Positions 49,780 through 64,000 of a DNA stretch of 64,000 nucleotides are shown here, piece after piece. The DNA is taken from positions 1-64,000 of the forward strand of contig NZ_BAEO01000027.1 of NCBI RefSeq assembly GCF_000314995.1, read 5' to 3'. The first letter of the stretch is position 1. Each line of letters opens with the position of its first letter. Source of the stretch: Paraglaciecola arctica BSs20135. Its GTDB lineage: Bacteria; Pseudomonadota; Gammaproteobacteria; Enterobacterales; Alteromonadaceae. Below the pieces are notes generated by a model that was not told where the DNA came from, ran no database searches, and saw nothing but the letters and a program-made list of their open reading frames with translations. A program made the translations under genes and the position numbers.

Positions 49780-52425
49780 CTATTGCTTTTCTACAGACAA
49801 AGTTTGCTCGCGGCTGGTAACTTGTGTATTAGGAATTTTAGCCCTTATGCGAATATCACCCTGTGTTTGTGGTTTCAGCGGGTTTTCAAACACTTGCCAG
49901 TTTTGACCTGACATTTGATACTCAAGTTGTAAGCCATTAAAAGCAGATTGCATAAATAACATCCTATCTTTTATTATTGCGCCGGGTAATGGGACTCTTG
50001 GCTGGATGCCATCTTTCACCAGTTGTGGCATGGCTTTATGAACCAATACACGGGTAAAACCAAGCCAGTCTGCATCCATCGCACTTTTTTGTGTTGAATC
50101 AAAATGACCCGTTTGAGCCGAATAGCTAACACCCGCTTGATATTTTTCCGCCCATTCAGGCTTATGCCATGCGCGTTCAGCTACCGCTAATAACCGGGGA
50201 AAAAGCATGTAGTTGGCCTGAGCGTCGGAACGCACAGTTTCACCCCATATTTGGGCTTGTATACCTAATATTTTTCGATTGTCTTGAATATCAACACTGG
50301 CTGTTGTTGCATAATTATGACCCAATTTATCGGTCCATATTTCAGCGTGTACAGGTAAGTTATGAGGCATAAACTGAAAAACTTGATAACTGTCGGTAAA
50401 TCTTGAACCCCAATAGTAGCCAGGTTCGATAGGGTCTGCTTCGTAGGGGAAATCAAAATAGAGTACGTCTGGTGTAGACAGCACAACATCCCAACCATTA
50501 TTTATCATTTTGTGGACTTTATTGTTTGCTCCTTGATAAAGAGCTTCCCATGCGTGGGATTGAATTTTTTTAGGTAAGTTATCAGGATTTGCATGGGATA
50601 AGCCATCACTCCATGCTGCAGGTATAACCCCCAATTCACTGACATTTGTGGCTACTTTTTCTACAAAATATGCTCCAAGCTGCTTAACATCAGTAAGACT
50701 ATCGTTTTTGGCAATCAGTGCTGCGCATGCCGGAGACTCTGTCCATGCACCAGCAGTTTCATCTGCCCCAATGTGATAGCGTTTTAATGGTACGTTTGCC
50801 ATTTTATGCATGTCGATTAATTGTTCAAGCACTTCACCTATAAAAGTATAGGTAGCAGGCAAACAAGGATTTAATGTGTTGTCGTTATAGTGTTGAATAG
50901 AGCGATATTGGCTTTTATCGTCGGGCTCGCTTAATAAATATTGTGCTGCCTCATCAGGCTTTTCTTCTTTTATTAGGCGGTTGTATCTAGCGTTCATTGA
51001 GACAATCGCTGCCCGTGAATGTCCTGGCATGTCTAAAGAGGGGAGTACCTCAATTTGACGTGCGTCAGCATATTGTAAAATTTCAATATAGTCCTCGATA
51101 CTATAAAAACCGCTGTTTTGTCGCGTTGCAGCTAACTTGCCATTACCGCTAGCGAGTTGTGGCATCAAACAACTTTGCTCCGATTCATCAAAGCATCGAA
51201 ATGCGCCTACATCGGTTAATTCAGGTAAAGAATCAATTTGTAACCTCCAGCCCTCATCGTCTGCTAAATGCAAATGTAACTTGTTGAGTTTGTAGTAAGA
51301 CATTTGATCTAAGGCTTTTAAAATAAAGTCTTTACTACGGAAGTTACGGGATACATCAATGTGTAGACCGCGATATGTCATGTCGGGTTGATCTTCTGCT
51401 AATCCTAAGGGTAGAGACTTGTTTTTTGCATCATAAAGTTGCGCGATTGACATCATTGCATAATAAAAGCCTGCTGAATCTGCATAAGAAATTTGTATGT
51501 CATCAGCAGTGACCAACAAGGTATAACTTTCTGGAATTGCATTTGTCTGTAGCTTGGTTTTTATGGGTAAACCTTGTGCGTTTATTTGTAATGCGTTGCT
51601 GTTAAATCGTTGGGTAATCGCAGTGGCGAAGTTGGGTTTAACATTTTTTGGCATGTCGGGTAATTTGATCCCGGCCGAAAGCTCAATTGTTTTGCCTGAC
51701 CAACTAGCCGTATTTAGTTTAGGTATGATACGTGGCTCGTTACTTACCCTGTCCTCAACCCCATGTGAAGAAAAGCGAGCAAAACGCTCTTGTGCATCAG
51801 CAATGGCGACTTTGTCGTCTGCTGTTCTGAGTAATTGTTCAGGGCGAGTAAAAGGCACAACGTGTTGAGGTCGTGCTAGCTGATAACCAGCAGTTAACTT
51901 TTCGGTGGTTGAAGTAATCACACTTGCTTCGCCGTTATCTGCCACCAATATATAATTAGGAAACAATACTGACTCAGAGGCTAGTGGTGAATTACCATAA
52001 AACTGAATTTCATATGGGGTGTTTGCCTTTATATCCGCATTTTTGGGGGTAATTTCATGCATGTCACCATTAACATGCACTAGGTTCAATGCATTGCTAG
52101 TGCTGGCGATGATTGGCGTTAAACTACTGAACATGATGCGCCAGGCATTGGGCATATGCTCGGGCAATGCAATTGTCATAGTGGCCTGATAACAACTCTT
52201 AACGTTGTTTGGGCAACCTTCTGTTAAGTAATTATTATCGACCCTCAATTTAACCTGAATTTGCTCTGCTGCTTGGCTAACTGAACTTAACGGATTAGCA
52301 GCAGTGGCTATTTGAGTTTCGTCTGCCTGTTCACAACCAGCCATAAAAAGAGTTGCCACTATAGTCAGGCTGGCAAGTGATCTTCGTTTTAATTTACTGG
52401 TCATTGGCATAGTGTTAATTGTCAT
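49780..52425 (-). CDS. Beta-N-acetylhexosaminidase, GH20 chitobiase-type lipoprotein
   Basis: 881 residues. Lipobox LFMAGC, Glu at +2. Domains in order: CHB_HEX N-terminal carbohydrate-binding-like domain (about 50-200), GH20b (about 230-345), the GH20 barrel with RGLHIDVSRNFRSKDFILKA and catalytic Asp555-Glu556 in HIGADETAGAW, and a CHB_HEX C-terminal domain (about 800-881). It releases GlcNAc from chitobiose and chitooligomers in the periplasm or at the outer membrane, supplying the transporter and kinase encoded upstream on the same strand. Size and domain order match Vibrio and Alteromonas chitobiases. Confidence 0.93.
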   Translation of the reverse strand: MTINTMPMTSKLKRRSLASLTIVATLFMAGCEQADETQIATAANPLSSVSQAAEQIQVKLRVDNNYLTEGCPNNVKSCYQATMTIALPEHMPNAWRIMFSSLTPIIASTSNALNLVHVNGDMHEITPKNADIKANTPYEIQFYGNSPLASESVLFPNYILVADNGEASVITSTTEKLTAGYQLARPQHVVPFTRPEQLLRTADDKVAIADAQERFARFSSHGVEDRVSNEPRIIPKLNTASWSGKTIELSAGIKLPDMPKNVKPNFATAITQRFNSNALQINAQGLPIKTKLQTNAIPESYTLLVTADDIQISYADSAGFYYAMMSIAQLYDAKNKSLPLGLAEDQPDMTYRGLHIDVSRNFRSKDFILKALDQMSYYKLNKLHLHLADDEGWRLQIDSLPELTDVGAFRCFDESEQSCLMPQLASGNGKLAATRQNSGFYSIEDYIEILQYADARQIEVLPSLDMPGHSRAAIVSMNARYNRLIKEEKPDEAAQYLLSEPDDKSQYRSIQHYNDNTLNPCLPATYTFIGEVLEQLIDMHKMANVPLKRYHIGADETAGAWTESPACAALIAKNDSLTDVKQLGAYFVEKVATNVSELGVIPAAWSDGLSHANPDNLPKKIQSHAWEALYQGANNKVHKMINNGWDVVLSTPDVLYFDFPYEADPIEPGYYWGSRFTDSYQVFQFMPHNLPVHAEIWTDKLGHNYATTASVDIQDNRKILGIQAQIWGETVRSDAQANYMLFPRLLAVAERAWHKPEWAEKYQAGVSYSAQTGHFDSTQKSAMDADWLGFTRVLVHKAMPQLVKDGIQPRVPLPGAIIKDRMLFMQSAFNGLQLEYQMSGQNWQVFENPLKPQTQGDIRIRAKIPNTQVTSREQTLSVEKQ

Positions 52426-52557: not shown

Positions 52558-54498
52558 CTAACGATTCAGCCTGTTTTCTATTAAATCTTCTACCACACTA
52601 GGTTCGGCCAGAGTTGAAACATCACCTAGTTGGTCATATTCATTGGCCGCAATTTTACGTAATATTCTGCGCATTATTTTACCAGAGCGGGTTTTAGGTA
52701 AACCTTGTGTCCATTGGATCATATCGGGAGTGGCGATAGGGCTTAATTCTTTACGTACCCAGTTTTTAAGTTCGCTGGTGAGTTCATCATTATAGCTTTG
52801 CCCTTCTACAGGACTCACAAAGACATAAATCCCTTGGCCTTTTATGTCGTGTGTGAATCCCACAACAGCAGCCTCGGCAACAGCGGGGTGGGAAACCAAG
52901 GCACTTTCTATTTCGGCGGTGCCTAAACGATGCCCAGATACATTAAGCACATCATCAACCCGTCCTGTTATCCAGTAGTAACCATCCTCATCTCTTCGAC
53001 AGCCATCGCCTGTAAAGTATTGATTTTTATAGGTGCTAAAGTAGGTTTGGATAAAGCGGGCATGGTCACCATAAATGGTTCTAGCTTGGCCCGGCCAACT
53101 ATCGCGGATCACCAAGTTGCCTTCGGTTGCGTGTAGTAACTCTTCGCCGTGTTTATCGACTATGGCTGGCTGGATCCCAAAAAATGGCATACTAGCAGCG
53201 CCTGGTTTTAAAGCGGTAACACTAGGCAAAGGGGTGATCATAATGCCACCGGTTTCAGTCTGCCACCAAGTGTCTACAATGGGGCAGCGACTTTTACCTA
53301 TGGTTTCATAGTACCACTGCCAGGCTTGGGGATTGATCGGTTCGCCTACCGAACCTAAAAGTCGCAGTGAATTACAGTGCGTACCATCTGCTGGATAATC
53401 ACCATGGGCCATTAATGCCCGTATTGCAGTAGGCGCAGTATAAAGAATATTGACCTTATGTTTGTCTACTATTTGGCAAATTCGTCTTACATCTGGGTAA
53501 GTGGGTACACCTTCAAATAATAATGTAGTGGCTCCGTTTGCTAATGGCCCGTACACCATATAACTGTGGCCAGTTATCCAGCCTACATCTGCTGCGCACC
53601 AGTAAATGTCGCCAGGGTGATAGTCAAATACATATTTGTGGGTCAATGCTGCATACACTAGATAACCACCAGTGGTATGCACCACTCCTTTAGGGGTACC
53701 AGTTGAGCCGGAAGTGTAGAGAATAAATAATGGGTCTTCGGCATTCATGACAGTAGGAGCGCAGTCTGTGGAAAAATCTGCGACCAATCTGTGCCACCAC
53801 AAATCTCGAGGAGTAAATTGCACCTCTCCACTGGTATTTTGAAATACTATGCAATGGGTAATACTTGGGCAGCGATTATCTTTTAAGGCTTCGTCCACAT
53901 TGACTTTTATTGGGGTGGTTTTACCACCGCGGCGCCCTTCGTCAGCAGTGATCACTACTTTTGCATCGCAATCGTTGATACGATCAGCTATGGCATTAGG
54001 CGAAAATCCTGCGAAAATAATAGAATGTACTGCGCCAATTCTAGTGCAAGCTAACATTGCATAAGCTGCTTCTGGCACCATGGGCATATAAATAGCCACA
54101 CGATCGCCTTTATTCACTCCTAGTTTTTTTAAGCCATTAGCTAAGCGACACACTTCATCATGTAATTGTTGATAGCTGATGTTTTGGTCTGTGTCAGTAG
54201 AGTCACCTTCCCAAATAATAGCGGTCTGCTGTGCGTGATGCGCCAAATGCCTATCAATACAATTGTAGCTGACATTTAACTGCCCATCTTCAAACCACTT
54301 TATGTGTAGATCGTCTTCAGAAAAACTGCTGTTTTTGATGATAGTCGGAGCTTTATACCAATCCAAAATGGCCGATTGCTGTTGCCAAAATTCATTGGGA
54401 GACTCAATCGATTGGCGATACATAGCTTGATACTTTTCAGTACTTAAAAAAGAATCCTGCTTGGCTTGTTCTGGCACGGGATAAAGCATTTCAGTCAT
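52558..54498 (-). CDS. acs: Acetyl-CoA synthetase
   Basis: 646 residues, full length for Acs. AMP-forming ligase motifs: [51 protein letters not shown], and the regulated lysine in [11 protein letters not shown]. It activates acetate to acetyl-CoA in the cytosol. Its place between nagP and the hexosaminidase on the same strand makes sense: NagA releases acetate from every GlcNAc-6-P, and this enzyme recovers it. Propionyl-CoA synthetase is a close relative, but the motifs and length fit Acs better. Confidence 0.92.
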
Positions 54499-54607: not shown

Positions 54608-55921
54608 TTAAGACCATTGTCTTATTTTGTGTCCTTTAAGGGCATAAAATAGGATGAAACCGTAACAGGGGAGCATCATCCAATAAGCTGACTGATTATC
54701 AAAATGGTCGGCTAAAAAACCATAACAAAGTGGTAAAACAGCGCCGCCAGATATGCCCATAATCAACCACGCAGATCCTCGTGCAGTTAAACTGTATAAA
54801 CCATCTAGCGCTAAGGGCCAAACAGCAGGCCAAACCAATGCATTGGCAAAGCCTAATATTGCAATAAGAGTGATAGCATTAGGTAGTTCAGCAATTCCCA
54901 TCCATCCCCACAAAAAACTTGAAATTGATGTGGATTGCACGTCAGCAAACACCACCGCCACACTCAATATTAAACCTAGAATGGCAGAGCCAGCTAACGC
55001 CTGAGCCTGATCAATCAGCCTTGGAATAAGCATTAAGCCTATTAAATAGCCCAGTACCATAAAGGCCATAGTATAAGAAGTTAACGATGTGGCGTTTGCT
55101 ACACCTAGCTGAGAACCAAACAGGCCAATTGTATCCCCAGCTATTACCTCGACTCCCACATATAAAAATAGCGCTAACACGCCAAGAATCAATTGTGGGT
55201 AAGCTTTTAAACTGCCTGCTTCTGCATCCGCTGATTCGGGTTTTTCAAGGACTAAGTCGGGTAATGAAGAAAACTTTAATAAAACGGATAATGCAAATAA
55301 GGCCAAAGCCATATAAGCATAAGGTAAAACTAGTCCATCAGATAAAGCCGTAATTTGGGCAACACGTTCGATTTCTGGCAGTGCCGCTATGGATTGAGCA
55401 TTCACCCCTGCAAATTCTCCCAACACTAAGGCAGTAAACACTATTGGTGCTAGGAATCCGGCAAATTTATTCAGTAAACCCATAATGGAAATACGCACAG
55501 CTGCGGTTTCCTGCGGTCCGATTTTAACAATATATGGGTTTGATGCTGTTTGCAGAATAGTCAGACCTGTTCCCACAATAAACTGAGCAAAAAGAAAAAC
55601 GGCGAATTCTTGCGAATATGCAGCTGGGATAAACAGTAGACAACCTAAGGCTATTCCCACTAAGCCTAAACACATTGAATGTTTGTAGCCTACTTTGTCT
55701 AACACCCAAGACATGGGTAGAGCCATTACTACATAGGCAATATAAAAGGAAAAAGCGACGAGTAATGCTTGTGACTCTGTTAAGTCACAGACTATTTGTA
55801 AAAACGGGATCAGGGCGCCGTTAAGCCATGTGACAAAACCAAATACGAAGAACAACATGCCTATGATAAGCATTGGTATTAGTGCACCTGATTTAGACTG
55901 CTGTGTGTTAATTGTTTGCAT
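54608..55921 (-). CDS. nagP: GlcNAc MFS permease (FucP-like)
   Basis: 437 residues with twelve predicted membrane helices and no cleaved signal. It belongs to the FucP/sugar:proton MFS group: FGFVTWLNGALIPFLQIVCD at the first helix is diagnostic, with LNKFAGFLAPI and WPLALDGLYSLTARGSAWLIMG later. NagP of Shewanella imports GlcNAc unphosphorylated. It follows nagA by 37 bases in an operon with the GlcNAc kinase, so the same job is very likely here. Confidence 0.92.
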   Translation of the reverse strand: MQTINTQQSKSGALIPMLIIGMLFFVFGFVTWLNGALIPFLQIVCDLTESQALLVAFSFYIAYVVMALPMSWVLDKVGYKHSMCLGLVGIALGCLLFIPAAYSQEFAVFLFAQFIVGTGLTILQTASNPYIVKIGPQETAAVRISIMGLLNKFAGFLAPIVFTALVLGEFAGVNAQSIAALPEIERVAQITALSDGLVLPYAYMALALFALSVLLKFSSLPDLVLEKPESADAEAGSLKAYPQLILGVLALFLYVGVEVIAGDTIGLFGSQLGVANATSLTSYTMAFMVLGYLIGLMLIPRLIDQAQALAGSAILGLILSVAVVFADVQSTSISSFLWGWMGIAELPNAITLIAILGFANALVWPAVWPLALDGLYSLTARGSAWLIMGISGGAVLPLCYGFLADHFDNQSAYWMMLPCYGFILFYALKGHKIRQWS

Positions 55922-55958: not shown

Positions 55959-57086
55959 TTAACCGAATACTTGTTCACCAGCTATATAAGTGGCATTCAC
56001 ATCATATTGATCGGTTAATACAACCCAGTCTGCAGCAAACCCTGGAGCCAAATAGCCCTTGTGTTGTTGCAAGCCTAGGAATGTGGCTGGAGTAGTTGAA
56101 GCCATCTTGATGGCGTCTTCAATAGTGCAGTGTAAATCAAGTATGCAGTTACGAACGGCACTGGCCATATCAAGTGCCGAACCCGCTAATCTACCGCCTT
56201 CAATGGTTAATTTATTGCCTTGTCGATTGATCTGCATACCAGCAAATTGTAATTCGATTTGTTCACTACCGACATGAGACATAGCATCGGTAACTAGCAT
56301 AATACGCTCTGGCGTTTTACATTTAATCGCCAATTGGCAGCTGGTCATATCCACATGTTCATGGTCGACAATCAATCCACAATAGCTAGATGCGTCTAAT
56401 AATGCCGCTCCAACCATGCCCGCTTCTCTACTTTGCAGAGGCGACATAGCATTGAATAAATGGGTAAAACCTTGCGCACCAGCTTTAAGCGCCGCAAACG
56501 TCTGATCGGCACTCGCATTAGAGTGACCTAAACAGATTTTAACGTTAGCTTGCACTAACTCCTCAATTATCTCGACAGATACGTTTTCAGGAGCCAAAGT
56601 GACACAAACTAAACCAAGATCTGTGCGTTTAAACAAGGCCATTTCTTCTGGACTAATTTGCCGAATATGCTGCGATGGGTGAATGCCTTTTTTAGGTTGG
56701 CTTAAATGGGGTCCTTCAAAATGAATGCCTACTATGCCTTTTACATTTTGTGCGATGGCAGATGCCACGGCATTGGCTGCCAATTGCATAGTTTCAAAAT
56801 CATCGGTTATAAGAGTAGGCAAGATAGCAGTGCTACCAAATTGTTGATGGGCTTGGCTCATGGTAATCAAAGTGTCTAGGTTCGGTTGATTATTAAATAA
56901 TACTCCGCCACCACCATTAACCTGTACGTCCACAAAACCAGGAACAACTAAACCAGACAATGGAATAACATCGCCTTGAAACCGTGCTGATTCAACTGAG
57001 TGTATTGTGCCGGACTCAACAGTAATCATTTGATTCTTTTTAACGGTTTCACCATCAAACAAATTTTCTGCAAAAAAACGCTGCAT
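55959..57086 (-). CDS. nagA: N-acetylglucosamine-6-phosphate deacetylase
   Basis: 375 residues, amidohydrolase barrel. VPGFVDVQVNGGGG, the metal-binding HFEGPHLSQPKKG, LGHSNASADQ, GFTHLFNAMSPL and the catalytic Asp in LVTDAMSHVG are all present. It removes acetate from GlcNAc-6-P to give GlcN-6-P for NagB. It joins the chitin branch and the MurQ product of the peptidoglycan branch. It is 8 bases after nagK in the operon. Confidence 0.95.
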   Translation of the reverse strand: MQRFFAENLFDGETVKKNQMITVESGTIHSVESARFQGDVIPLSGLVVPGFVDVQVNGGGGVLFNNQPNLDTLITMSQAHQQFGSTAILPTLITDDFETMQLAANAVASAIAQNVKGIVGIHFEGPHLSQPKKGIHPSQHIRQISPEEMALFKRTDLGLVCVTLAPENVSVEIIEELVQANVKICLGHSNASADQTFAALKAGAQGFTHLFNAMSPLQSREAGMVGAALLDASSYCGLIVDHEHVDMTSCQLAIKCKTPERIMLVTDAMSHVGSEQIELQFAGMQINRQGNKLTIEGGRLAGSALDMASAVRNCILDLHCTIEDAIKMASTTPATFLGLQQHKGYLAPGFAADWVVLTDQYDVNATYIAGEQVFG

Positions 57087-57094
57087 CTGTGCCT

Positions 57095-57985
57095 CTAGTA
57101 TACTTTGTTAGTTAATTTCATCTTGGAATATAGAATTGCGCCTTGCTCTGGAGATGCTTTGGCGGGTTGAATGATATCCTGTAGTTGGCTATTCAAATAT
57201 GGCAGTAAGGGTTGTGTAATACCACCAATCAAAGACAAGCGATCTAGATTACCGCTTAATAAACGTTGGCAAATCTTATTGATATAAGTGGCGGCTTGAT
57301 TTACCAATAATAATGCATCTTCTTGCTGACTTGCCGCTAATTGCAAAATCAGCGGTGCAATTGATGCATAAAACACTGGTTTTGCCTCTAGTGTTAAACT
57401 AACCAAATCGTAAGCATTATCACAATTAAGTAAACTCATTACCTGTTCGCAAAGAGGATTGTTAGGAGTGATACCATCTAATGTTTCAAGGCAATGACTA
57501 ATCGCCATCTTGCCAAGCCATGCACCACTGCCTTTGTCGCCGACTACAAAACCATGACCGCCAACTTCTAACTGTTGACCGTTGTGGATAGCGATTCCAG
57601 ATGAACCTGTTCCTACTATCACTATGGCTCCGTCTAGACCTAAATGAGCGCCAAGGCAAGCAATATGCAAATCAGTGGTTATCTGCCAACTAGCAAAGGG
57701 TAAGGATTGTTTTAGAAAAGCTTGTTTAACTTGTGGAATATTAATACCTGCCAAGCCAATTCCAGCATGGATTTGGTTTAGTCTTAACCCTTTAATATTA
57801 GCATTGGCGATTGCTTTTTCACTGGCTTCAAGCACAGCGGCAACTGAACCTGTTAAATGACGGGCAGCATTAGCCGGACCTGAGGTCGCTTCAGCCAAAA
57901 GGTTTCCCTGTGCATCTTCTAGGCGAGCTTTACATTTGGTGCCGCCGCCATCAATGCCTAGAAAGAAGTCCGTTGAATTAGTCAA
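57095..57985 (-). CDS. nagK: N-acetylglucosamine kinase (BadF/BadG family)
   Basis: 296 residues. Phosphate loop FLGIDGGGTKCKARLED, GPANAARHLTG, and IVIVGTGSSGIAI...GGHGFVVGDKGSGAW define the BadF-type GlcNAc kinases of Shewanella and Xanthomonas nag operons. It phosphorylates imported GlcNAc at C6 in the cytosol. First gene of nagK-nagA-nagP; its promoter has a NagR operator at the predicted start site, 160 bases upstream. The paralog at 41398 shares every motif and may act on MurNAc. Confidence 0.9.
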   Translation of the reverse strand: MTNSTDFFLGIDGGGTKCKARLEDAQGNLLAEATSGPANAARHLTGSVAAVLEASEKAIANANIKGLRLNQIHAGIGLAGINIPQVKQAFLKQSLPFASWQITTDLHIACLGAHLGLDGAIVIVGTGSSGIAIHNGQQLEVGGHGFVVGDKGSGAWLGKMAISHCLETLDGITPNNPLCEQVMSLLNCDNAYDLVSLTLEAKPVFYASIAPLILQLAASQQEDALLLVNQAATYINKICQRLLSGNLDRLSLIGGITQPLLPYLNSQLQDIIQPAKASPEQGAILYSKMKLTNKVY

Positions 57986-58130: not shown

Positions 58131-58178
58131 AATGACAGCGTTGTCATTCTATTTTACATGTCATCAAACTATTTGCAA
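58131..58178 (-). promoter_or_regulatory. nagKAP promoter with NagR operator 1
   Basis: On the minus strand: TTGCAA (58178-58173), 16 bases, TAAAAT (58156-58151), then the operator. The operator AATGACAGCGTTGTCATT (58131-58148) matches the LacI-type NagR consensus AATGACARCGYTGTCATT of Shewanella and sits over the expected start, a repression position. The -35 region and the bases around it (ATTCAAAATGTTG, AAATAGTTT) are repeated in the nagB promoter. Confidence 0.85.
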
Positions 58179-58353: not shown

Positions 58354-58371
58354 TTTGACAGCGTTGTCATT
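58354..58371. promoter_or_regulatory. NagR operator 2
   Basis: TTTGACAGCGTTGTCATT, core TGACAGCGTTGTCA identical to the other three sites. It lies 223 bp from operator 1, beyond the nagB stop and away from a recognisable minus-strand promoter, so it may act as an auxiliary site for DNA looping. Confidence 0.8.
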
Positions 58372-58460: not shown

Positions 58461-59267
58461 CTAATAGTTATGGAAATAACCAAAATCTTCAATTAGCTTA
58501 CGATTTTCGTTATCAGCCCATTGATAGTAACTTTGGTCGCTCAATTCACTAGCCGCCGCTTTATCTAACAATACAATTGCATTTTCATGCATTTGCAGTG
58601 CGGATGCGGGACACATAGCGGAAACACCACCGGTAATCATTGCTTTAACTGCATTTGCTTTGTTAACGCCAGTCGCCATTAATAATACATAACGTGCATC
58701 CATAATAGTGGCGATACCCATAGTCATAGCCATGGTTGGTTGTTTTTCTTCGGGCTTAAATAAACGGCTGTTATCGGTAATAGTTTGTTGGGTCAAAGTT
58801 TTAATACGTGTACGTGATGACAAGCTTGACGTTGGCTCGTTAAAACCAATATGTCCATTTGCACCTATACCTAAAATTTGTAAATCAACGCCACCTGATT
58901 GTTTGATTTTTTGTTCATAAGCCAATCCTTGTGTTCTGGGGTTTTCGCCCAGAGCGCAGGTAGGTAAAAAGGTATTGTTCACATCTATATCAACATGATT
59001 AAATAAGTTTTTATCCATAAAGCTGCGATAGCTTTGTGGATTGGCTGCATCTATTTGGTGATATTCATCTAGGTTGAATGTGGTGACGTTTTTAAAGCTA
59101 AGGTTGTTTGCTTTATATTGTTCAACCAACTGTTTGTATAAACTAATAGGTGTACTACCTGTTGCTAAACCTAATACAGGGTCAGTTTTTTTCTTAATCA
59201 GTTCTTTTACCCATTTAGCAGCACTTTCGGCAACTTGCTGAGCATCGTCATAAATAATAATTTGCAT
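58461..59267 (-). CDS. nagB: Glucosamine-6-phosphate deaminase
   Basis: 268 residues, equal to E. coli NagB (266). LGLATGSTPISLYKQL is the phosphosugar loop; the catalytic Asp67 is in TFNLDEYHQ, and GIGANGHIGFNEP carries the later active-site residues. It deaminates and isomerises GlcN-6-P to fructose-6-P and ammonia, the last step of both the chitin and peptidoglycan sugar branches. A strong GAAGGAAG site precedes the ATG. Transcribed alone from its own NagR-controlled promoter with a 165-base leader. Confidence 0.96.
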   Translation of the reverse strand: MQIIIYDDAQQVAESAAKWVKELIKKKTDPVLGLATGSTPISLYKQLVEQYKANNLSFKNVTTFNLDEYHQIDAANPQSYRSFMDKNLFNHVDIDVNNTFLPTCALGENPRTQGLAYEQKIKQSGGVDLQILGIGANGHIGFNEPTSSLSSRTRIKTLTQQTITDNSRLFKPEEKQPTMAMTMGIATIMDARYVLLMATGVNKANAVKAMITGGVSAMCPASALQMHENAIVLLDKAAASELSDQSYYQWADNENRKLIEDFGYFHNY

Positions 59268-59420: not shown

Positions 59421-59467
59421 TGTGACAGCGTTGTCATTTATTCTACCTTTTATTAAACTATTTACAA
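59421..59467 (-). promoter_or_regulatory. nagB promoter with NagR operator 3
   Basis: Minus strand: TTGTAA (59467-59462), 16 bases, TAGAAT (59445-59440), then the operator core TGACAGCGTTGTCA inside 59421-59438. The arrangement is the same, base for base in spacing, as at nagK, and the upstream flank ATTCAAAATGTTG is identical. Confidence 0.85.
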
Positions 59468-59689: not shown

Positions 59690-59727
59690 TTTGACAGCGT
59701 TGTCATTTGTGTCGGCAGGAGTATAAT
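59690..59727 (+). promoter_or_regulatory. Halogenase promoter with NagR operator 4
   Basis: TTTGACAGCGTTGTCATT (59690-59707) contains a TTGTCA (59700-59705) that serves as a -35 box; 16 bases later is a perfect TATAAT (59722-59727). Repressor binding would block RNA polymerase directly, putting the plus-strand halogenase-like gene at 59846 in the NagR regulon. Confidence 0.8.
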
Positions 59728-59845
59728 GAGATAACATTCTATGTTCAGATCTTGTTAGTTGATTTTGAAATTCAAACTCTCTCTATAGCAATGATGCGGG
59801 TAACAGGGTAAAGATAGTCAACAGACTATGGGGAAATAATTAGAT

Positions 59846-61351
59846 ATGGTAAAACCTATTAACAAGATAGTCATAGTTGGTGGTGGTACCGCTGGTTGGA
59901 TGGCGGCGGCCAGCCTTGCAAAGTATGCTCAAGGAAAGTCTCTTGATATTTGCCTGATAGAATCATCGTCTATACAAACGGTTGGAGTAGGTGAGGCGAC
60001 TATTCCCAACATAGTCGAATTTAATCGTATCCTTGGTATAGATGAAATAGAGTTAATCAAGGCCACTAAGGCTACCTTCAAGCTAGGTATTCAGTTTGAA
60101 GACTGGCACCAGAAGGGGGAAAGCTTTTTTCATCCGTTTGCTGACTACGGTCTTAAGATTGATCAGCTAGAGTTTCACCAATATCTGAACAGACTTGCCG
60201 CTGGTGGTGAAAAAGTTTCAATTCAAGATTATAGTTTTTCCTGCGCACTGGCCAAATTAGGACATTTTGCGCAACCCCACCCACAGCCACCTTCGCCACT
60301 TGCTGATTATTCCTACGCTTATCATTTCGATGCCAGCCTGTACGCACAATTTTTACAAAAATTTGCAGTCAATTTAGGCGTGACTCATATCGACGCAAAG
60401 GTGGAAAAGGTCAATTTGCACTCCAGCAATGGATTTATAAACTCAGTGACTCTTGATGACGGGCGAGACATTGAAGGACAGCTGTTTATTGATTGTTCAG
60501 GATTTAAGGGGTTACTGATAGAACAGGCCCTACACACTGGTTACGAGGATTGGAGCCATTGGTTGTTTTGCGACACGGCTGTGGCGGTGCAGACTGAGTC
60601 CGTAGGTGTCACCAATCCCTACACCCGCTCCATTGCAGGCGATGCTGGCTGGCAGTGGCGAATTCCATTGCAACATAGAACGGGTAACGGTTATATCTAC
60701 AGCAGCCAATTTGAGAAAGATGAGGATGCAGAAAATAAACTGCTGGAAACGTTGCAAGGTAAGCCTATTAATCAACCTCGTAAAATAGCTTTTACTCCGG
60801 GGCGGCGTAAGCAGATATGGAACAAAAATTGTTTTGCTCTAGGGCTTGCCAGTGGCTTTCTTGAACCTCTTGAATCGACCAGTATTTCCTTGGTACAAAC
60901 CGCCATTGCTAAGTTGTTAAACTTTTTTCCAGATACAGACTTTAACCCTTATGACATTGCTGAGGTCAATCGTCTGCACAATAGGGAAGTGGAAAATATA
61001 CGTGATTTTTTGATCTTGCATTACAAGATGACTGGGCGCAGTGATACTGACTTTTGGCGTCGTTGCCAAGCCATGGAAATTCCCGACCTATTGGCCCACA
61101 AGATGGGGGTTTATCAAAGTCGCGGGCATATTGTGATGACAGACAATGAATCTTTCCAGAGTGCCAGCTGGCTAACTATGTATCAGGGTTTTAACCACCT
61201 AAGTAAACGGTTTGACCCCAGAGCCGAGACGGTTGAGCTAGCTGTATTGAGACAAAAATTAGCGCAGATGCGACAATCTATAGATTCGGCGGCACAGCAA
61301 GCTATGAGCCATGATAGTTTCATCGATACACATTGCCGGGCTCAACTTTAG
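59846..61351 (+). CDS. Flavin-dependent tryptophan-halogenase-like protein 1
   Basis: 501 residues. FAD site IVIVGGGTAGWMAAASLA; Lys79 in ATFKLGIQFEDW, the position of the catalytic lysine of PrnA/RebH; the halogenase box W269-Q-W-R-I-P274; and EPLEST (341-345 region) which contains the Glu/Ser pair near the active site. All parts needed for HOCl or HOBr chemistry are present. Such genes are frequent beside TonB receptors and sugar-use operons in Alteromonadales, Caulobacter and Xanthomonas, where the true substrate is mostly unknown. Its promoter carries a NagR operator, tying it to GlcNAc use. Tryptophan as substrate is doubtful. Confidence 0.88.
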   Translation: MVKPINKIVIVGGGTAGWMAAASLAKYAQGKSLDICLIESSSIQTVGVGEATIPNIVEFNRILGIDEIELIKATKATFKLGIQFEDWHQKGESFFHPFADYGLKIDQLEFHQYLNRLAAGGEKVSIQDYSFSCALAKLGHFAQPHPQPPSPLADYSYAYHFDASLYAQFLQKFAVNLGVTHIDAKVEKVNLHSSNGFINSVTLDDGRDIEGQLFIDCSGFKGLLIEQALHTGYEDWSHWLFCDTAVAVQTESVGVTNPYTRSIAGDAGWQWRIPLQHRTGNGYIYSSQFEKDEDAENKLLETLQGKPINQPRKIAFTPGRRKQIWNKNCFALGLASGFLEPLESTSISLVQTAIAKLLNFFPDTDFNPYDIAEVNRLHNREVENIRDFLILHYKMTGRSDTDFWRRCQAMEIPDLLAHKMGVYQSRGHIVMTDNESFQSASWLTMYQGFNHLSKRFDPRAETVELAVLRQKLAQMRQSIDSAAQQAMSHDSFIDTHCRAQL

Positions 61352-61371
61352 AACTAGTTATTACCTTCCTA

Positions 61372-62895
61372 TTATGGTTTAGGCGCTCGGCAGTATTCTT
61401 GTATAAATGCATCGTGGCTCGGCTGTTGCCGCGCAATGTTTGTTATGGCTTGTTGGCCGCTGTGCAAGGAGGTTTTTAGTTTTACATAGTCAAGGGCATC
61501 TGCGGTGGGGTTGTAGCGTTGCGGCTTGACCCCCATACCGTCAAAAACCGCGTACCAGCTGGTGGGCTGAAATAACTCTTCTACTCCGGGAATTAGGCCG
61601 CCTGCTACGGAGAAAAAATCAATTTTTTGCTGCAGGCTTTCGGGTATAGGCATGTTGGCGCAGTAACGCCAAAACTCGCTGTCATCTCTTTCTGTGGTGC
61701 AATAGTGCAACACCAAAAAATCGCGGATTTCTTGGTAGTCGGCGCGAACACGGCGGTTAAATTCATCGATCTGCACTTGATTAGTCTGTCTGTCGGGAAA
61801 CATACGAACAAAAAATGCCAGAGTTTTAGATACCAAATGAATGGCGGTAGATTCCAAAGGCTCTAAAAAACCCTGTGCTAAGCCCAAAGCTAAACAGTTC
61901 TTATGCCAGGTTTTTTTGCGTATGCCGGTGACAAAAGGGATTACTCTGGGCTCTCCAATGACCTTGCCCTCAACAGAATCTAACAAGGTATCGATGGCTT
62001 GTTGATCGCTACAGTACTTATCACAAAACACATAGCCGTTTCCGGTCCTATGTTGCAGCGGTATTCGCCATGTCCAACCTGCATCACGGGCCTTTGACAC
62101 AGTATAGGGTGGCGTAGCGCCAACATTTTCAGTTTGCACCGCAACGGCGCGATTACAAGGTAGATAAGCAGACCAATCGTCGTATCCACAATTGAGGCTT
62201 TGCTCAATCAATAAGCCTCTAAACCCTGAGCAATCTATGAAAAAGTCCCCTTGTATTTGTCGACCTGAGTTGAGTACCACGCTATGGATTTCGCCATTTG
62301 CATTTTGTTCTACTGTTTCAACCTTGCCTTCGCTGCGCACCACGCCCAATTTCTCGGAAAACTTCCGCAGAAACTTGCCAACTAAAGCAGAATCAAGGTG
62401 CAGGGCATATTGCGCTCCGGCTAAGGGAGTGCCGGCGGCTTTAAAAGGTAGAAAAAACCGCCCTTGCTCAGACAAAACTGCTTCAGGTGAATGGGCCATT
62501 AGAGGGGGGGTATCCCCTTCGGCCTGAGATTTTAACCAAAGCTGATAAAAATCATGGCCGTCAATAATGCTGCCAATGCTGCCGAAGGGATGAAAATAGG
62601 ATCCGCCTTTTATGCGCCAATCTTCAAATTGTATGCCCCATTTAAAACTAGCCTGAGTAGCTTTAATAAATTCGACTTCATCTATGCCCAAACTTCTAAT
62701 AGTAGCCAAAAGCGGAGGAATGGTAGCTTCGCCCACGCCAATAATGCCAATTTCATCGGACTCTACCAGTTCTATTTGCACATCTTTTTGCTTGAATATA
62801 TTGCCTAGAGTTGCCGCGGCTATCCAGCCAGCAGTTCCGCCCCCAACGATAACAATTTTCTTGATGGGATCTTGAGTCGGTTTCATAAGTAACAT
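61372..62895 (-). CDS. Flavin-dependent tryptophan-halogenase-like protein 2
   Basis: 507 residues from ATG 62895 (ATG 62886 is equally possible). FAD site IVIVGGGTAGWIAAATLG, Lys in ASFKWGIQFEDW, WTWRIP, LGLAQGFLEPLESTAIHLV. It is clearly a paralog of proteins 1 and 3, with conserved catalytic residues. It is downstream of protein 3 by 31 bases on the minus strand and converges with protein 1 at a 20-base gap. No own promoter is visible, so it is probably read from beyond the right edge. Confidence 0.87.
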   Translation of the reverse strand: MLLMKPTQDPIKKIVIVGGGTAGWIAAATLGNIFKQKDVQIELVESDEIGIIGVGEATIPPLLATIRSLGIDEVEFIKATQASFKWGIQFEDWRIKGGSYFHPFGSIGSIIDGHDFYQLWLKSQAEGDTPPLMAHSPEAVLSEQGRFFLPFKAAGTPLAGAQYALHLDSALVGKFLRKFSEKLGVVRSEGKVETVEQNANGEIHSVVLNSGRQIQGDFFIDCSGFRGLLIEQSLNCGYDDWSAYLPCNRAVAVQTENVGATPPYTVSKARDAGWTWRIPLQHRTGNGYVFCDKYCSDQQAIDTLLDSVEGKVIGEPRVIPFVTGIRKKTWHKNCLALGLAQGFLEPLESTAIHLVSKTLAFFVRMFPDRQTNQVQIDEFNRRVRADYQEIRDFLVLHYCTTERDDSEFWRYCANMPIPESLQQKIDFFSVAGGLIPGVEELFQPTSWYAVFDGMGVKPQRYNPTADALDYVKLKTSLHSGQQAITNIARQQPSHDAFIQEYCRAPKP

Positions 62896-62926
62896 CCATT
62901 GGCTGGCGGGAAAGTTTTATTCAACA

Positions 62927-64000
62927 TTACTGTGTATTAGCCTTATAGGCACAAAAACGGCTTAGGAATTCAAGGTGGGAAGGCACCGGTGTAACCATAT
63001 TTTTAATAGCGCTGCGCATTTTCGCCAGATTGGTATTTAAATATTCTGTCGGCATATTATCTACTTCAGCAGCATAAGTGTCTGGCAAATAATTAAACCC
63101 AGAATAAATGGCTAACCAACTATCAGGACCGAATATTTCCCAAGGGGAGCGACTTAGATCTCCCACGGATTTAAAGGCCTGCATCTTTTCGTTTAAGCTA
63201 TCCGGCACCGACATTTCCCGGCAATATCGCCACATAGGTGAGTCATCTCTTTGATTGGCTTTGTAGTGCAAGATTATAAAGTCTCTTACTCTCTCGTATT
63301 CAGTGGCGGTGACCTGATTAAATTTATCTACTTCGGTTTGACTAAAGGCAGCTTTGGGGAAAGATTGAATGATCTTATCTATAGCCGTCTCTACCAAAGC
63401 AATACTGGTACTTTCTAGAGGTTCAAGGAAGCCTGCCGCCAAACCAACCGCAATACAGTTTTTATGCCATGCATTCTTACGTCGACCTGGCTTAAACGAG
63501 AATTGGCGAGGTGAATGCAGGGCTTTGCCGTCTAAATTTTCAATTAGGGTTTGCAGGGCATCATCGTCGCTTATGTATTGACTACTATATACATGGCCAT
63601 TGCCGCTTCTGTGTTGTAAAGGGATTTTCCACTGCCAGCCGGCTTGATGCGCTTTGGCTATGGTGCGGGGAATAGGCGCGCCAACAGATTCAGTTTGCAC
63701 TGCAAACGCTTTGTCACATAGCAGCCATTGGCTCCAATCTTCAAATCCGCAATGCAGGGCTTTTTCTATAAGCAGACCGGCAAAGCCTGAACAGTCAATA
63801 AACAAGTCACCGTTTATTTGTCGGCCATCTTCAAGTTGCAGGGTTTTAATATCACCGTTTTGTGAATCTAACACTACTTCGGCGATTTTACCGTCAATGG
63901 CGGTGATGTTGTTTTTTATGGCGTGAGTACGCATCAAATCAGCAAAAAGAGCGGCGTCAAAATGTAAGGCCCAGTCAAAAATCTGCAAAGCTGATTCTGG
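62927..64000 (-). CDS. Flavin-dependent tryptophan-halogenase-like protein 3, N-terminus outside window
   Basis: The frame is open at the right edge (codons P-E-S-A-L-Q-I-F before the internal TTG at 63988), so the FAD-binding N-terminus is outside. The visible 358 residues contain DCSGFAGLLIEKAL, WQWKIPLQHRSGNGHVYSSQ, and AVGLAAGFLEPLESTSIALV, the same landmarks as the two neighbours. First gene seen of a minus-strand pair with protein 2. A TonB receptor upstream of it would be the usual arrangement but cannot be seen. Confidence 0.87.
   Translation of the reverse strand, partial: PESALQIFDWALHFDAALFADLMRTHAIKNNITAIDGKIAEVVLDSQNGDIKTLQLEDGRQINGDLFIDCSGFAGLLIEKALHCGFEDWSQWLLCDKAFAVQTESVGAPIPRTIAKAHQAGWQWKIPLQHRSGNGHVYSSQYISDDDALQTLIENLDGKALHSPRQFSFKPGRRKNAWHKNCIAVGLAAGFLEPLESTSIALVETAIDKIIQSFPKAAFSQTEVDKFNQVTATEYERVRDFIILHYKANQRDDSPMWRYCREMSVPDSLNEKMQAFKSVGDLSRSPWEIFGPDSWLAIYSGFNYLPDTYAAEVDNMPTEYLNTNLAKMRSAIKNMVTPVPSHLEFLSRFCAYKANTQ

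Follow-up and report, generated by a model that had tools for sequence, protein, structure and literature searches.

Why should three genes that resemble flavin-dependent halogenases sit beside a pathway for the use of N-acetylglucosamine (GlcNAc)? The question is posed by the genome of Paraglaciecola arctica BSs20135 (assembly GCF_000314995.1), in which these genes, here called Hal1, Hal2 and Hal3, lie at the end of the window that we analysed, namely the first 64,000 nucleotides of contig NZ_BAEO01000027.1 (C46 below). As enzymes they belong to an already known family. Our answer, which we hold to be an evenly balanced proposition, is that they are relatives of BrvH and Xcc4156 that serve as accessories of a TonB-dependent receptor (TBDR) in a NagR-controlled locus for the uptake of GlcNAc or chitin oligosaccharides, and that they act on something linked to the receptor.

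That the three proteins are halogenase-like is the easy part. Profile searches give each of them a full-length match to PF04820 (cut-off 21 bits), and in an alignment all three retain the GxGxxG motif, Lys79, WxWxIP, the catalytic Glu and EPLEST, which confirms the preliminary description of this DNA, where three halogenase-like paralogs with Lys79, WxWxIP and EPLEST had been seen beside nagB. In Hal1 the lysine is exactly residue 79, and the other motifs read WQWRIPL and EPLESTS. Among 177 relatives (13 from the organism's own genome and 164 from 80 loci in other genomes), 168 have Lys79 and 166 have Glu343, and the two Trp of WxWxIP are conserved in 175 and 160, respectively. The flavin adenine dinucleotide (FAD)-binding stretch GGGTAGW, read by eye, starts at residue 12 in Hal1, 18 in Hal2 and 15 in Hal3, which leaves no space for a signal peptide, so that the proteins should, on this sequence evidence, be cytosolic. 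Hal1 and Hal2 are convergent. A TBDR gene, Hal3 and Hal2 follow one another in that order on the minus strand.

PrnA, RebH and PyrH, the best known PF04820 enzymes, serve secondary metabolism; they have the fold, FAD motif, Lys79, catalytic Glu and WxWxIP in common with the Hal proteins and are about 32% identical to Hal1. The Hal1 model (mean predicted local distance difference test score, pLDDT, 86.8) is predicted to match most closely three solved structures that are effectively tied, namely the Pseudoalteromonas L11 halogenase (9luq; Z 54.2, root-mean-square deviation (rmsd) 1.8, 486 residues), BrvH of Brevundimonas sp. BAL3 (6frl; Z 53.9, rmsd 1.6, 487 residues; 44% identical to Hal1) and Xcc4156 (6y1w; Z 53.5, rmsd 1.6, 490 residues), with PrnA (4z43) next at Z 47.7. 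A tree that combined the 177 relatives with four PDB chains places Hal1, Hal2 and Hal3 in three separate groups, each of which includes proteins from Paraglaciecola, Thalassotalea, Shewanella and Pseudoalteromonas loci. BrvH is in the group of Hal3 (support 1.0), and Hal1 joins these two (0.987), whereas Hal2 stands in a separate group (0.988) that includes the own paralog C58c and proteins of other families; the own paralogs C34a and C8b are the nearest to Xcc4156 and 9luq. The comparison with the Xanthomonas and BrvH halogenases (group C of PMC8269204), proposed in the preliminary description, thus puts Hal3 and Hal1 with these relatives by their position in the tree, and Hal2 apart. Hal3 reads ATIPTL and HPFGL where BrvH, as printed in PMC8269204, has ATIPTI and HPFGL. 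Against Paraglaciecola hydrolytica, nonsynonymous divergence (dN) is 0.193 for Hal1, 0.155 for Hal2, 0.176 for Hal3 and 0.145 for the TBDR, synonymous sites being saturated. Three ortholog groups together with low dN point to three separate enzymes kept under strong constraint beside the same receptor, and we infer that three sites or three partners fit better than redundancy.

Might the proteins have lost halogenation and taken up another flavin-dependent oxidation, for example hydroxylation of protein Trp or Tyr as in QhpG and LodB, or the production of peroxide? Weak matches to the QhpG and LodB models (and to GoxB for one paralog) would suit such a change, as would the Fe(II)/2-oxoglutarate (2OG) oxygenases that occur as partners, but for Hal1, Hal2 and the own C58c the scores are far under the cut-offs (29–37 bits against 240 and 23–28 against 400, respectively), and on all three the CmlS halogenase model does equally well or better (29.3, 45.9 and 39.4 bits). 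A further hint comes from seven of the 13 own paralogs (C34b, C8a, C58a, C58b, C4, C13 and C1), which carry EPLEA, or EPIEA in one, in place of EPLES beside the catalytic Glu; none of these is Hal1, Hal2 or Hal3. The conservation of Lys79 and Glu343 speaks against a loss, and so does BrvH, the enzyme with which Hal3 groups, since it does brominate (PMC5945002). On balance we find this explanation improbable, and a halogenating activity of Hal1–3 is what their motifs would predict. As a separate observation on the EPLEA subgroup, the top PDB-chain scores of C58b are to tryptophan 5- and 6-halogenases.

How would these genes be controlled? The operator evidence for regulation of the Hal loci by GlcNAc through NagR is strong, as far as predicted sites can tell. 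The word TGACAGCGTTGTCA has four exact sites in the window, making eight matches over both strands, against 0.30 expected from shuffles with up to two mismatches allowed. The pattern TGACANCGNTGTCA has nine sites in the whole 5.96 Mb genome and its reversed control none; seven of the nine are on C46 (58133, 58356, 59423, 59692, 67703, 67767 and 68067), with 67703 and 67767 just upstream of the TBDR gene and 68067 ahead of a LacI-family gene, and the remaining two flank a second halogenase locus on C58. These two operator-bearing GlcNAc/chitin loci hold six of the 13 full-length own halogenases. As the preliminary description had noticed, the putative operator before Hal1 overlies the −35 box: TTGTCA at 59700 lies inside 59692–59705 and forms its second half, and TTGTCA-16-TATAAT is the best of four promoter-like sites in the Hal1 upstream stretch (2.0 expected). 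An operator also stands within 700 bases upstream of the gene start in six of the seven Hal1 orthologs of the tree (L034–L039 of L034–L040).

The locus has both a LacI-type regulator gene and an operator common to the nag genes, as a NagR regulon should, and the regulator is 67% identical to that of locus L063 and 54% to that of L038. A similar NagR regulon is described for Shewanella oneidensis, with a LacI regulator, nagK-nagB-nagA, nagP and the omp-Nag TBDR (PMC3223726, PMC2996990), and binding to the NagR operator has been tested there (PMC3223726); the nagB type differs, being nagB-II in S. oneidensis and the TIGR00502 type in the window, and the main texts of these two papers name no halogenase. 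By analogy, a LacI-type NagR would itself bind the predicted operators and repress nagK-nagA-nagP, nagB, Hal1 and TBDR-Hal3-Hal2, and GlcNAc would relieve the repression. We rejected the operator word as a sign of NagR in the Brevundimonas-type loci L059, L065 and L103; in L059 it flanks glycoside hydrolase (GH) genes of families GH3 and GH5, and the LacI protein of L059 shares 33% identity with that of the window locus.

What recurs beside these halogenases, whatever the sugar, is the receptor. The 13 full-length PF04820 genes of the own genome (four more matches are short or weak) are spread over seven loci, and a TBDR is present in all seven, with a gap of 58 to 170 bases to the nearest halogenase in six. 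The rest of each locus varies: SapC and Cupin_8 genes lie between halogenase and TBDR on C8, GH94, GH5 and a sugar carrier are found on C34, GH3 and GH65-type genes on C1, and the C58 locus combines GH18, Gfo/Idh, three halogenases, two Cupin_8 genes, a TBDR and a D-serine-dehydratase-like gene. All four own Cupin_8 genes and three of the four SapC matches fall in halogenase loci. One of the SapC matches is the C-terminal part of a 671-residue fusion in the C1 locus (L033:7793-9808), in which a halogenase is joined to the C-terminal half of SapC and which adjoins the TBDR and glycosidase genes and links the two families.

The same pairing extends well beyond this genome. We took the 80 best Hal1 matches among those listed from GTDB species genomes (a few share a genome; their titles name Alpha-, Beta- and Gammaproteobacteria), and since resemblance to Hal1 was the criterion of choice, the figures describe the Hal1 branch rather than the whole of PF04820. 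Of these loci, 78 carry a whole or partial TBDR, within 500 bases of a halogenase in 73 and within 200 bases in 65. By blastp alone, a TBDR of at least 500 residues is seen in 65 loci, and a partial or better profile match (E 1e-3) in 71; 15 loci had no such long hit by blastp, and ten frames, from ten of these loci, all matched TBDR models when compared with Pfam (the plug domain only in L111). The count of 78 includes L094 by its likeness to L090, with no Pfam run, and L107, whose receptor is split over several frames, and leaves out L078, which has only a truncated, weaker TBDR hit; in L070 a TBDR was sought and none found. Two to four halogenase frames per locus are common, occurring in 53 of the 80. 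Within the organism's family, a Hal1 relative (E 1e-50) occurs in 116 of 128 genomes and a relative of the C46 TBDR (E 1e-70) in 29 of 128.

What else do these loci have in common? Among 119 proteins of 150–700 residues encoded directly next to the halogenase-TBDR blocks of loci L040–L113 (L034–L039 excluded), of which the 25 commonest of 71 families were considered, Cupin_8 is found 8 times, LacI, 2OG-FeII_Oxy_5 and GH43 6 times each, PF04820 5 times, and DUF6445, GH10, GH5 (Cellulase) and alpha-amylase 4 times each. Glycosidases, regulators and carriers differ between loci, and the TBDR is constant. With the same family near GH5/GH94, GH3/GH65-type, GH43, GH10 and alpha-amylase genes, a GlcNAc-linked substrate is unlikely to explain the whole family. 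The Hal1 branch would seem, rather, to accompany sugar TBDRs across several kinds of glycan locus, NagR control being nothing special. The preliminary description had suggested that regulation with amino-sugar use pointed away from secondary metabolism; the nutrient-uptake setting and the GlcNAc operators support it in this, and its link to amino sugars was too narrow, the association being with TBDRs generally.

One could of course argue that the halogenases produce or alter a halogenated compound, be it a signal, an antibiotic or a siderophore-like molecule, which the cell releases or imports when sugar abounds. The roles of PrnA, RebH and PyrH would lend this some weight, and Colwellia halogenase transcripts in a metatranscriptome have been interpreted in terms of competition (PMC11337851). 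Yet there is no biosynthetic gene among the annotated neighbours (elsewhere, the 25 commonest of the 71 families; annotation is partial), a separate copy would be required for every sugar locus, and the Trp-binding C-terminal motif listed in PMC8269204 (YYHGFETYS in PyrH) has no counterpart in Hal1 in our alignment. We therefore rate such a role as distinctly improbable. With relatives beside sugar receptors in many bacteria, nutrient uptake is probably the business of these enzymes, rather than the making of antibiotics.

A fair rival, if an unlikely one, is a small aromatic compound that the TBDR takes in together with the glycan, such as an aryl glycoside or a phenolic, and that is halogenated for detoxification or utilisation. 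The enzymes would lack a signal peptide and adjoin uptake and catabolic genes; BrvH shows a weak brominating activity on free indole in vitro (PMC5945002), and PMC8269204 classes the Xcc enzymes among indole halogenases. Work on BrvH has been in vitro and on indole, its natural substrate being not known according to its authors (PMC5945002); Hal1–3, by comparison, come with a GlcNAc regulon. The wide variety of glycosidases among loci of the same family, the lack of an aromatic group in GlcNAc and chitin, and the 53 loci with two to four halogenase frames argue against a small molecule of this kind.

We return to the receptor, and to the reading that we favour, in which the enzymes oxidise or brominate, in the cytosol, a target associated with the TBDR, which may be the receptor polypeptide. 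In the chemistry of the family, a flavin hydroperoxide arises from FADH2 and O2 and is attacked by halide; the resulting hypohalous species passes to the lysine and reacts there with an aromatic substrate. In the cytosol, Hal1–3 would consume FADH2, O2 and halide (probably bromide in a marine organism), and Lys79 and Glu343 would direct the hypohalous species to an electron-rich aromatic group of the receptor-tied target. A surface target, as raised in the preliminary description, or one linked to the receptor remains the leading though unproven candidate: that the target is linked to the receptor has, in our judgement, roughly an even chance of being right, and that it is the receptor polypeptide itself is a more tentative suggestion, which we think unlikely.

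Some of the loci also have partner proteins. Cupin_8, a JmjC-like family, keeps its HxD and distal His in 13 of 13 proteins compared. In L090 its place, 3' of the halogenase, is occupied by a tetratricopeptide-repeat (TPR) protein with a 2OG-Fe(II) oxygenase domain (PF13759; L090:11498-12853); frames stand at the same place in L094, L104 and L111, the domain content being established singly for L090. SapC (PF07277) is widespread within the family (54 of 59 genomes). Its model (L197:1471-2241; pLDDT 93.1) had no PDB match at a Foldseek E value of 0.001 or less, none at Z of at least 2 among 999 chains, and none among viral models at E 0.001; a predicted fold with no structural match allows no function to be derived, and the fold may still be a known one. 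Since the receptor and not the sugar is constant, and since oxygenases and SapC come along, the substrate could be one that several cytosolic modifying enzymes share, and the receptor polypeptide before export would suit as such a joint substrate. It is conceivable, if doubtful, that halogenases, JmjC-like and TPR-2OG oxygenases and SapC form a module that edits aromatic residues of TBDRs before export.

Several findings weigh against all this. The own genome has 84 PF00593 matches and 19 TIGR01782 receptors above cut-off (the receptor of the C13 halogenase locus is not among the 19), so that, with only seven loci, the majority of own TBDRs have no adjacent halogenase. For fifteen relatives of the C46 TBDR the nearest 1.5 kb is free of halogenase genes, and not every such receptor can require one in cis. 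SapC is not a strict partner: of 30 loci taken from the family for their SapC gene, 15 showed a match to a halogenase within about 1.5 kb, and in 14 that distance held no match to a halogenase, Cupin_8 or a TBDR. In L040 (Pseudoalteromonas luteoviolacea) the operator word was sought across the locus of the Hal1 ortholog and none was found. The halogenase-linked TBDRs are not one clade, an idea that we rejected from the own-genome tree (eight linked of 20, C8b counted as linked). Shared regulation alone can, moreover, account for the gene neighbourhood.

We also had to give up a receptor tryptophan as a substrate that tracks the halogenases. In a first alignment (numbering of the own C46 TBDR; C8b TBDR excluded), W568 was present in 73% of 71 halogenase-linked TBDRs and 0% of 12 unlinked own TBDRs, and W635 in 72% and 17%. 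Among related TBDRs marked as unlinked (no halogenase within 1.5 kb), all 16 have W568, and only four keep W635. One of these, L166, was wrongly marked, a halogenase lying just past the end of the stretch, which leaves 15 truly unlinked; L146 was counted as linked by a SapC match only, and the W568 and W635 columns shift between the two alignments for distant receptors. The unlinked receptors that keep W568 include homologs, about 67% identical, from genomes that also have a linked copy (L157, L160 and L182). The persistence of W568 with no halogenase nearby marks the Trp signature as a property of the receptor clade, which counts against the receptor as target. Trp 349, 568 and 635 of the C46 TBDR (L027:1621-4674) are conserved in near relatives and may be ligand-stacking residues. 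A phage origin was rejected too: the matches listed (10 rows of 80 records) were mostly distant cyanophages (about 30%), and the two closer ones (47%) were unannotated human faecal records.

The features of the locus are collected in the table. The acetyl-CoA synthetase gene within the nag cluster, adjoining nagP, could reclaim the acetate that NagA frees.

Table. Genes and predicted sites of the halogenase locus and the adjoining nag cluster on contig C46
Feature	Position	Strand	Basis or remark
GH20 beta-hexosaminidase	49780..52425	-	PF00728, PF03173
Acetyl-CoA synthetase-like gene	52558..54498	-	PF00501, PF16177
nagP-like sugar transporter	54608..55921	-	PF07690 MFS_1; role from context
Presumed nagA-like deacetylase	55959..57086	-	open reading frame; name assumed from context
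nagK-like GlcNAc kinase, BadF/BcrAD ATPase family	57095..57985	-	PF01869; role from context
Putative NagR-type operator before nagK	58133..58146		word search
Putative NagR-type operator between nagK and nagB	58356..58369		word search
nagB, glucosamine-6-phosphate deaminase	58461..59267	-	TIGR00502 above cut-off
Putative NagR-type operator before nagB	59423..59436		word search
Putative NagR-type operator TGACAGCGTTGTCA before Hal1	59692..59705		word search
Predicted sigma-70-like Hal1 promoter, TTGTCA-16-TATAAT	59700..59727	+	11/12 match
Hal1, flavin-dependent halogenase-like, 501 residues	59846..61351	+	PF04820, 612 bits
Hal2, flavin-dependent halogenase-like, 507 residues	61372..62895	-	PF04820, 585 bits
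Hal3, flavin-dependent halogenase-like, 507 residues	62927..64450	-	PF04820, 596.6 bits; runs 450 bases beyond window end (64000)
TBDR	64621-67674	-	TIGR01782; outside window
LacI-family regulator	68413-69477	+	past TBDR; outside window

Is any of this already on record? Among the matches listed from the open-licence literature, mostly titles and the beginnings of abstracts, no description of the halogenase-TBDR pairing was found, and it is possible that one exists, for example in the subscription literature. Iyer and colleagues are reported to have written, in about 2010, on peptide-modifying dioxygenases, and their paper may describe neighbourhoods of TonB, halogenase, SapC and JmjC genes, and a paper of 2006 is reported to cover the GlcNAc pathway of Shewanella. 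For BrvH, Xcc4156 and their kin, structures have been solved. Such genes are interpreted as antibiotic or tryptophan enzymes, and the competition idea of PMC11337851 is built on transcripts of this family. The genomic setting points instead toward TBDR-mediated sugar uptake, and it supplies a predicted inducer (GlcNAc), a regulator and a candidate target close by. If the editing of receptors should prove true, it would tune ligand binding or shield the receptor from phages and bacteriocins, and we would be looking at a protein-modification system assembled from enzymes that have been classed as belonging to secondary metabolism.

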